A DNA stretch of 64,000 nt from Actinobacteria bacterium HGW-Actinobacteria-4. GTDB taxonomy: Bacteria; Actinomycetota; Actinomycetes; Actinomycetales; Demequinaceae. The stretch lies in contig PHEW01000007.1 in NCBI GenBank assembly GCA_002841315.1, positions 61,835 to 125,834 on the forward strand, written 5' to 3'. The position numbers and the translations under genes were made by a program. Below, in pieces: positions 4,683 through 7,850 of the stretch (positions are counted from its first letter, which is position 1; the number at the start of each line of letters is the position of its first letter). The notes under the pieces are model-generated. The model did no database searches and had not been told where the DNA came from. It was given only the letters and a program-made list of their open reading frames with translations.

Positions 4683-5168
4683 CTAGCGCTCGAGGTGGTC
4701 GCCCCAGCCCACAATCAGCACCGCAATGAGGCCCGTGAGCAGTGCGCCGGAGGACACAACGGGCGTCGCGAGTGCCGCGAGCAGGGCGTCGCCAAAGCTG
4801 GGGCCTTCGGCGCCCAACAACTGGAGAGTCTCATTGCCGCCACCCACCATGCCCGTGACCACCATGAGGTGCACACCCAAGGCTGTCACAACCAACGCGA
4901 CTGCCTGTGAGGTCAGCCCACGGTGCGCAGACGTGAGACGTACCGTGAAGCCCACAGCGAACGCCATCAGGAGCCCCAGAACGATGAGCGCGAGCACGTT
5001 CGGATCGCTCGGCACGAGCACCGACAGCAGCAGTCCTACCGCGATGGCGACCACGAGGCCGGCGAGAAGCCCGCCTACCTGGTTCTGGCGGAGTGTGGCG
5101 AGCACCGACCCCGAATCGGCCGGAGTGGGCTCCGGAGCGGCCGGCGTGGCATCGGTCTTCTTGACCAT
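4683..5168 (-). CDS. Hypothetical membrane protein, paralog of 7335..7754
   Basis: MVKKTDATPAAPEP...; the core AFAVGFTVRLTSAHRGLTSQAVALVVTALGVHLMVVTG resembles AVVGFAVRLTSSASVNQTFLAAFVTAGLGVHLIVGAA. Confidence 0.7.
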   Translation of the reverse strand: MVKKTDATPAAPEPTPADSGSVLATLRQNQVGGLLAGLVVAIAVGLLLSVLVPSDPNVLALIVLGLLMAFAVGFTVRLTSAHRGLTSQAVALVVTALGVHLMVVTGMVGGGNETLQLLGAEGPSFGDALLAALATPVVSSGALLTGLIAVLIVGWGDHLER

Positions 5169-5264
5169 GGAGAGTCTCCTTCGAAAGTGGCGAGCCTAAC
5201 CCCCTCATCATGGCACGCCACGCGTAAGCGCAAGCAGCGGCGCTGAACGCGCTACGTTAAGGCC

Positions 5265-6503
5265 ATGGGAGAGAACACGACTCCGACAAGCACGCGGGAC
5301 CTCGTGTGGATGCCTGCATGGACGCGCGCACAGGGCGAGCAGCGGGCGCGCTCTCACCTGAGCCAGGCGCTTGGCGTCGACGCTGATGGGGTCTGGTCCG
5401 CACCCGGCCAGCTCACGATCATCGGCGAACACACCGATTACAACAACGGGTTGACCCTGCCGACCATTACGCCTCACCGTACGTTCGTCGCTGCGAAGCT
5501 TCGCGACGATGACCGTGTTCGCATGGCATCCGACAACGCGGTGTTCGATGACAACGGCGGTCAAGTCTGGGAGGGGACCCTCGACTCAATTTCTGCCGAG
5601 ACCGCCGCGGGATGGCCCTCGTACGCCGCTGGCGTGCTGTGGGCACTACAAGAACACGGGCTCACGGGCAAGGGCGTCGATCTTGGCATCGTTTCGTGCG
5701 TGCCATGGAGCACGGGCCTATCCAACTCCGCCTCTGTCGAAGCTGCCGTCGCGCGCGCCATGAACGACCTGTGGAAGCTGTCTCTCGACAGTGAGGCCGG
5801 GCTGAGTGAACTCGCTGAGGCGTGCACCGACGGCGAGAACCAGATTGCGCGCATGGCTACGGGTGGCCTGGGCCAGCACGCGGTGCTCCGGTGCCACGAC
5901 AACGAGGCCATCTTGCTGGACTTCCGTGACAGTATTCCCGACGCCACGGCCTGCCCGCTGTACTTCCCTGACTACGGACTTGCCATGCTCGTGATTGACA
6001 CCATGGTTCGCTTCCACATACCCGGAGGAGTCTCGGGGATGCGCAAAGAGGAATGCATGCGCGCCGCAGAGGAGCTTGGCCTGAGCAGCCTGCGTGACCT
6101 CCACCATGATCCTGCGAGGCTCAACAGGCTTGTGGAACTGAGTGACGAGACCTTGCGCAAGCGCGCGCGGCACGTGTACTCAGAGAACGATCGCGTGATG
6201 CTGGTGAAGGAGGAGCTCAGCGGTACTGGGCCCGCGCATGAGCGGTTCGTGTCGATCGGCAAGGCGCTATCGCGCTCGCACACGTCGCTCGCCGCCGACT
6301 TCGAAGTGAGTTGCCCCGAACTCGACCTCGCTGTGCAGGCCGCGAGCATGGCGGGGGCGCTGGGTGCGCGAATGGTGGGTGGAGGGTTTGGCGGGCCTGC
6401 GGTGGCGCTGATCCGGCGTTCGCTGGCGGAGCGCACGGCCCACGCCATCGCGCAGGCCTTTCGCGACCACGGTTACGACGACCCCCATTTTCTGCTGGTC
6501 TAG
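5265..6503 (+). CDS. Galactokinase-family (GHMP) protein with substituted catalytic residues; probably not a canonical GalK
   Basis: GEHTDYNNG, RARHVYSENDRV, EVSCPELDLAVQAA and GARMVGGGFGG are GalK-like. APGQLTIIGEH (canonical PGRxNLIGEH), GLSNSASVE (GLSSSAAL) and TGGLGQH (TGGMDQ) deviate. Confidence 0.85.
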   Translation: MGENTTPTSTRDLVWMPAWTRAQGEQRARSHLSQALGVDADGVWSAPGQLTIIGEHTDYNNGLTLPTITPHRTFVAAKLRDDDRVRMASDNAVFDDNGGQVWEGTLDSISAETAAGWPSYAAGVLWALQEHGLTGKGVDLGIVSCVPWSTGLSNSASVEAAVARAMNDLWKLSLDSEAGLSELAEACTDGENQIARMATGGLGQHAVLRCHDNEAILLDFRDSIPDATACPLYFPDYGLAMLVIDTMVRFHIPGGVSGMRKEECMRAAEELGLSSLRDLHHDPARLNRLVELSDETLRKRARHVYSENDRVMLVKEELSGTGPAHERFVSIGKALSRSHTSLAADFEVSCPELDLAVQAASMAGALGARMVGGGFGGPAVALIRRSLAERTAHAIAQAFRDHGYDDPHFLLV

Positions 6504-6532: not shown

Positions 6533-7333
6533 CTACAGTGCGTAGTCCACAACGAGCGGGGCGTGATCGCTCCACCGCTGATCCCACGCGGCGGCCCGGT
6601 GAACCGTCGCTGCGACAGCGGATGCGGCAAGCGCTGGTGACGCAAGGTGATAGTCGATGCGCCAACCAGCATCGTTGTCAAAGGCTTGGCCGCGTTGAGA
6701 CCACCACGTGTACGGGCCAGGCTGTTCGCCAACAACACTGCGGTGCACGTCTACCCAGCCCGCCTCAACCCAGCGGTCAAGGTAGGCGCGTTCCTCTGGA
6801 AGGAAGCCTGCGGCCTTGAGGTTGCCCTTCCAGTTCTTGATGTCGTTATTGGTGTGGGCGATATTGATGTCGCCCATCACCACCACGCGCGGGTGTTCCG
6901 CGCGCAACTGTGCCAGGCGCGCCGACATCATGTCGAGGAATGCGTACTTGTCGTCCATCTTGGGTGTTCCGGCCTCGCCCGAGTGGACGTAAACCGACAC
7001 GACGCGAACCGGACCCGACGGCGACTCAACGGTAGCCTCGACCCACCTGCCCGTGTGGGTCGCGGGAATCGCGCCGTCACCCAGCACCTCAGCACCCACC
7101 ACAGCAGCGCTCAGCGGCGTGCGGGACATGATCGCCACGCCAGCGCGGCCCTTGTTCTCGCAAGCCTGATGCACCACGTGCCATCCGTCGGACAGCGCCG
7201 CGTGCACCACATCATCGGGGGCGCGCAACTCTTGCAACGCCACGACGTCGGTGCCGGAGACATCCAGCCACTCAGTCATGCCCTTGCGAAGCGCTGCGCG
7301 CACCCCGTTGACGTTGACAGTCGCGATACGCAC
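6533..7333 (-). CDS. xth: Exodeoxyribonuclease III
   Basis: MRIATVNVNGVRAALRKGMTEWL...VVALQELRAP...VMGDINIAHTNNDIKNWKGN...WRIDYHLASPAL...SDHAPLVVDY. Confidence 0.9.
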   Translation of the reverse strand: MRIATVNVNGVRAALRKGMTEWLDVSGTDVVALQELRAPDDVVHAALSDGWHVVHQACENKGRAGVAIMSRTPLSAAVVGAEVLGDGAIPATHTGRWVEATVESPSGPVRVVSVYVHSGEAGTPKMDDKYAFLDMMSARLAQLRAEHPRVVVMGDINIAHTNNDIKNWKGNLKAAGFLPEERAYLDRWVEAGWVDVHRSVVGEQPGPYTWWSQRGQAFDNDAGWRIDYHLASPALAASAVAATVHRAAAWDQRWSDHAPLVVDYAL

Positions 7334-7334
7334 G

Positions 7335-7754
7335 TTACGCGCGGCGACCTACGGTAGCGACGAGTCCTGCGACAACGCCAAAGAAGATGACGTAGCCGTT
7401 GATCGGCGACCCGAGGTATGCGGTCAACATGGTGTAACCGAAGTCGTCGAAGCCCCGACCCGCCGCGCCCACGATGAGGTGCACGCCAAGGCCTGCTGTG
7501 ACGAACGCGGCCAGGAACGTCTGGTTCACCGACGCCGATGACGTCAGGCGAACCGCGAATCCAACCACGGCCGCGATGATGAGGCTGATGATTCCGAGCA
7601 GGAAGAGCAACGCCCACTCGTTGTCAAGACCAATGACGACCAGCGCCAAGATGTGGGAAAGCACCACCGCAGCAACCAGGCCTGCCACCCAGTGAATCTG
7701 TGCGATCGAGGAGAACTTCCCTAGTGGTTTACTCGAGCTTTTCGTTTCAGCCAT
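7335..7754 (-). CDS. Hypothetical membrane protein, paralog of 4683..5168
   Basis: MAETKSSSKPLGKFSSIAQIHWVAGLVAAVVLSHILALVVIGLDN...; AAAGGAGTGAAC-ATG supports the start. Confidence 0.7.
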   Translation of the reverse strand: MAETKSSSKPLGKFSSIAQIHWVAGLVAAVVLSHILALVVIGLDNEWALLFLLGIISLIIAAVVGFAVRLTSSASVNQTFLAAFVTAGLGVHLIVGAAGRGFDDFGYTMLTAYLGSPINGYVIFFGVVAGLVATVGRRA

Positions 7755-7850
7755 GTTCACTCCTTTGTTTTCATGGACACCCAAAGCGGGCTTGTCCATC
7801 GTGGCACACGTGGCAGGCAATCTCAACGAACAGCAGGTGAAGGTCTGGCG

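Follow-up and report, generated by a model that had tools for sequence, protein, structure and literature searches.

The well-known non-catalytic relatives of galactokinase (GalK) are those of yeast, and among the GHMP kinases at large, homoserine kinase dispenses with a catalytic Asp. The yeast genes GAL1 and GAL3 split the work of a two-function ancestor (PMC3048525). Our searches of the open literature combining galactokinase and pseudoenzyme returned nothing, and we found no description of such a protein in bacteria. The stretch analyzed here, 64,000 nucleotides from Actinobacteria bacterium HGW-Actinobacteria-4 (hereafter the window), carries at positions 5265 to 6503 of the plus strand a gene for a divergent GalK-fold protein of 412 residues. 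This gene belongs to an old second galactokinase lineage, hereafter O, which a single actinobacterial family has passed down at a fixed chromosomal site. Like bacterial GalK (TIGR00131; B. infantis 6tep/6teq; E. coli GalK), the window protein has the fold from end to end and three recognizable GHMP motifs, but it falls below the TIGR00131 cut-off and carries an extra GPAH(E/D)RF insertion, and its catalytic Asp, the Arg, a P-loop Ser and the Tyr are replaced. Yeast Gal3 likewise is a galactokinase relative that coexists with a canonical galactokinase (Gal1); O differs in being bacterial, in being no duplicate of the canonical copy and in its wide active-site loss. No Gal80-like partner is known for it, and a sensor role is only a candidate. 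With homoserine kinase and other GHMP kinases O shares the GHMP fold, yet it fits galactokinase models far better (197-225 bits, versus 21 for the homoserine kinase model).

The original prediction described an intact reading frame, and all 412 codons are indeed open, with every motif that it quoted in place. The domains GalKase_gal_bdg, GHMP_N and GHMP_C are all detected above the Pfam cut-offs, and membership of the GHMP superfamily is indicated both by PF00288 and PF08544 and by the fold match. An AlphaFold2 model built with 27 relatives (pLDDT 90) has as its closest PDB structure the B. infantis galactokinase 6teq, matched over the full length with a TM score of 0.89 at 37% identity; as modeled, the protein is a well-formed GalK fold and no fragment. 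Galactokinases are the families that it fits best, yet it reaches none of the equivalog cut-offs: against TIGR00131, the model named in the original prediction, it scores 200.1 bits, below the curated cut-off of 226.65. All O copies fall short of that value, the highest being the one from genome G044 (215.8), and the canonical copies in usable assemblies exceed it with 287-326 bits.

Residue equivalences were established by alignment with E. coli GalK. In the window protein, Q49 (5409..5411, plus strand) replaces the Arg of PGRxNLIGEH (E. coli R28), N154 (5724..5726, plus) the second Ser of the GLSSSA phosphate loop (S129) and G203 (5871..5873, plus) the catalytic-base Asp (D174), the last by alignment and tree; these are the Arg, Ser and Asp losses first read from the sequence, and Q49 and G203 leave the Arg/Asp pair of R28 and D174 unfilled. 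The reported loss of the substrate Tyr was also recovered, S257 (6033..6035, plus) standing for Y223 in a region that is less surely aligned. The rest of the sugar-binding set, E34, H35 and D37, is unchanged in the window protein (E55, H56 and D58); T332 corresponds to V371, and the Gly-rich loop itself is retained. The key catalytic residues, whose absence characterizes a pseudoenzyme, are therefore missing from the window protein.

Across O, these positions vary to very different degrees. Position 49 is Arg in 35 of the 37 O proteins and in all canonical ones. The catalytic-base position, which is Asp in 122/122 canonical and outgroup GalKs, holds Asp in 28 O proteins, Ala in four, Gly in three, Val in one and Asn in one, and the Tyr position is occupied by Tyr (17), Phe (13), Val (3), Ile (2), Ser (1) or a gap (1). 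Arg49, Asp58 and the base Asp203 are all kept in 28/37, and an O-specific His205, two residues past the catalytic position, is found in 31/37. Other O branches have lost the P-loop serines and kept the Asp (GLAGWAA, GMGGFEA), Ser 154/155 being replaced in several Asp-keeping branches and the Asp being lost in Ser-keeping ones. Twelve canonical active-site positions are fully intact in 21/21 canonical GalKs, in 20/21 other GalKs of the order and in none of the 37 O proteins. At 31 active-site columns, the agreement between two sequences is 1.00 for the canonical copies, 0.98 for the other GalKs and 0.69 for O, and over the remaining protein it is 0.62, 0.55 and 0.51, respectively; the relaxation in O is therefore concentrated at the active site. 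Loss of the Asp requires at least three changes on the O tree, and six species, the window's included, form one Asp-less group (support 94/96); to the question of a GGLGQ clade, raised in the original prediction, the answer is that a G(L/V)(G/A)QH clade exists. A sequencing slip, whose correction would have restored the Asp, is unlikely because the window gene groups with five orthologues from other genomes, each of which has Gly or Ala here.

We sampled 47 genomes of the window species' family, 46 of which have galK-type genes. An O orthologue was recovered as a full-length protein in 37 of them, window counted. Three further genomes have the gene in imperfect form, split at contig ends (G029), frameshifted (G026) or, in a noisy assembly, scrambled (G041), and six lack it (G008, G010, G014, G019, G034 and G035). 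Within contig reach, every O locus reads Mrp > small 161-aa-type gene < O > ExoIII < FolD < GlyA, and in the six genomes without O, the same flanking genes adjoin each other. In the window, the divergently transcribed 161-aa neighbor lies at 4683..5168 (minus strand), is conserved also where O is absent and gave no Pfam match; the convergent exodeoxyribonuclease III-like gene at 6533..7333 (minus) serves as a marker of the fixed locus. A second small protein without Pfam match (7335-7826, minus) lies on the other side of the O/ExoIII pair and appears to be related to the first, as judged from cross-matches; the gene at 4683-5168 is kept at the O locus family-wide. We rejected a function drawn from the operon, as the neighbors (Mrp/ApbC, ExoIII, FolD and GlyA) are housekeeping genes that persist without O and are thus uninformative about it; no regulator or sugar gene linked to the O locus was seen. 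A search of 396 genomes of the order with an O profile found no O outside the family, full-length O proteins scoring at least 454 bits and other GalKs at most 411 among the matches listed. Scanning a collection of genome contigs with the single window protein found no relatives, and a profile scan returned ordinary actinobacterial GalKs; the GalK relatives of this actinobacterium include those of Promicromonosporaceae and Cellulomonadaceae. O is thus a family-wide orthologous lineage with its own insertion and no single odd gene.

O forms a single clade (support 100/100). In a tree with E. coli GalK as the outgroup, it is placed in the GalK lineage usual in the order, and the canonical copy groups with GalKs of Microbacteriaceae and Micrococcaceae. 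Forcing O and the canonical copies into one clade was rejected (p-AU 1.8e-5), which, together with the tree placement, excludes O as a simple, recent duplicate of the canonical gene. In the genome of the window species, this canonical galK resides at C1:195169-196272, is 44% identical to the window gene and has all canonical motifs. It is followed by galE, and its upstream neighbors are an arabinose operon (araBDA type) and a LacI-type regulator, gene names having been assigned by eye from the translations. The absence of galT and galE near the window gene holds for the locus itself, and both are found elsewhere in the genome. As for the suggestion that a canonical galK might sit with galT, such a galK is present beside galE, but the galT-type gene is about 30 kb away, at C1:164468. 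The galK-galE pair spans L003:7125-9324 (G000:C1), with two GH1-type glycosidases downstream. A galT detectable with PF01087 occurs in 11/47 genomes of the family, though nearly all have a canonical galK; we rejected a link between galT and O, as this patchy distribution does not track O.

Two genomes of a sister genus can be compared. O occurs in the absence of a canonical galK in G044 alone (99% complete), where it retains 10/12 active-site residues, the most of any O. In G046, of the same genus, a canonical galK is present and O has lost 8/12 of these residues. With one case each, this natural experiment is suggestive only. No PF01087 galT was found in G044, and its O, located at C7:5639-6844 (L034, L005), is the least altered O protein; it may be a working kinase of another pathway.

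O also has features of its own outside the catalytic cleft. The segment GTGPAHERF (residues 320-328; 6222..6248, plus strand) is a lineage-specific insertion in a helix-turn-helix of the C-terminal domain; over residues 321-328 it follows the pattern [TL]xPAH[ED]RF, and all 37 O proteins share its P, A, R and F. It is absent from the canonical copies and from the outgroup GalKs, apart from rare ones in which other residues fill this place. In the models, it sits between two long helices (295-319 and 324-346 in O, 274-300 and 304-319 in the canonical protein). In human GALK1, fragment screening found a distal pocket bordered by the beta7-beta8 loop and by the Tyr300/Phe303 turn, which makes up its base (PMC8056384). 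Mapping by hand through the alignment puts the counterparts of Tyr300 and Phe303 in the insertion turn and the lineage-specific F234 and Y237, within PLYFPDYGL (residues 231-239; 5955..5981, plus), on the equivalent of the human beta7-beta8 loop. Among the O-specific conserved residues, 8/19 lie in the distal-pocket segments and 1/19 in the active-site segments (p = 0.002, post hoc); depending on the threshold, this post hoc p ranges over 0.002-0.015 with the insertion and 0.04-0.19 without it. We regard the apparent clustering as a lead, not a proof.

Leaderless transcripts are common in actinobacteria, and the region upstream of O would fit one. A putative -10 element, TACGTT (5253..5258, plus strand), was read from the sequence 6 bases before the ATG. 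At about the same distance from the start codon, 25/37 orthologues have TGGCA[CT][AG]AT, and the majority of the rest have another -10-like hexamer. Positions 5169-5264 form a putative divergent promoter region, and in several orthologues the predicted -10-like elements of the two opposed genes appear about 35 bases apart. Scans for sigma-70 promoters and terminators found nothing.

Repeated loss of active-site residues could mean that O is a relic decaying after the canonical galK took over, the window copy being a pseudogene in the making, and the intact loci without O in six species, as well as the broken frame in G026 (unless an assembly error), would agree with this. We consider such decay improbable on the basis of how the gene has evolved. 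By the Nei-Gojobori method, close O pairs have omega values of 0.08-0.26, similar to canonical galK. In the Asp-less subclade G013/G032/G003, omega is 0.084, 0.127 and 0.141 for O, below the 0.158, 0.179 and 0.192 of canonical galK in the same genome pairs, and no nonsense hit was observed, although neutral evolution should give roughly 33-37 of them for each substitution per site, so that neutral drift is not credible and decaying junk very unlikely. Purifying selection after the loss of the Asp is therefore seen in this subclade. For the window species' own long branch, pairs give omega values of 0.32-0.42 that are rough because synonymous sites are near saturation (dS > 1.2). Furthermore, 37 intact long frames across a deep divergence, the conserved lineage-specific insertion and the conserved promoter-like element are at odds with a relic.

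A function that is maintained might still be catalytic. The O lineage as a whole could be a kinase because 28/37 proteins keep Arg49, Asp58 and the base Asp, and it is a possible but less likely reading that O, above all in the Asp-keeping branches, is an active GHMP kinase whose substrate has changed to another sugar or a polyol. The pocket changes would then reflect a new specificity, and the Asp-less clade would be base-independent; some GHMP kinases, such as homoserine kinase, manage without a catalytic base. The two P-loop serines present in many O proteins, the retained fold and Gly-rich motif, the O-specific His205 and the near-complete site of G044, a genome lacking both canonical galK and PF01087 galT, are compatible with this reading, which the original prediction had also entertained. 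Against it, a new specificity should fix a new constellation of residues, but the active-site columns have loosened instead, and the O proteins do not share any one set of catalytic residues; for the window protein in particular, which lacks the Arg, the Asp, a P-loop Ser and the Tyr together, it is less likely. That O in the window species backs up the canonical copy as a galactokinase of low residual activity appears very improbable: galactokinase is by far its best family match, and E55, H56, D58 and the motif-III glycines are retained, but the base, its partner, the P-loop Ser and sugar-contact residues are gone. In human mevalonate kinase, another GHMP member, significant activity is abolished when Asp155 is replaced by Ala or Asn (PMC1851959), which speaks against this reading.

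Our preferred reading, which we consider probable though by no means secure, is that O is a conserved pseudo-galactokinase in the window species and the Asp-less clade. Its core, that the window protein is a pseudoenzyme and not an ordinary GalK, as first predicted, is well supported by the joint loss of the Asp, Arg, P-loop Ser and Tyr, by the true galK in the same genome and by the purifying selection on the Asp-less clade. Because its catalytic residues have eroded differently between species and the rest of the protein is under selection, O probably has a job other than making galactose-1-phosphate. The sequences show that the ATP- and sugar-site residues have diverged differently in several branches, the fold, reading frame and insertion being kept by purifying selection. 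On our reading, galactose phosphorylation would have been lost in the window species and in the sister clade that also lacks the Asp. O would then work as a GalK-fold binding protein, either as a sensor of a sugar or nucleotide or by docking to a partner; by analogy with yeast, a Gal3-like sugar sensor is possible. The selected surface may have moved to the distal face, which is made up of the beta7-beta8 loop and the GPAH(E/D)RF helix-turn-helix. Extending the pseudo-galactokinase to the whole family, with its working site moved from the catalytic cleft to this distal face (the region of the human GALK1 allosteric pocket), is a doubtful proposal.

As a caution, annotation by similarity may label O genes galK. 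Together, the approximately 37 orthologues at one locus constitute a natural series, ranging from near-complete (G044) to catalytically stripped (the window species and G003/G032), for which the canonical galK genes that accompany them serve as an internal control, and this series makes the transition from a metabolic kinase to a binding protein testable.
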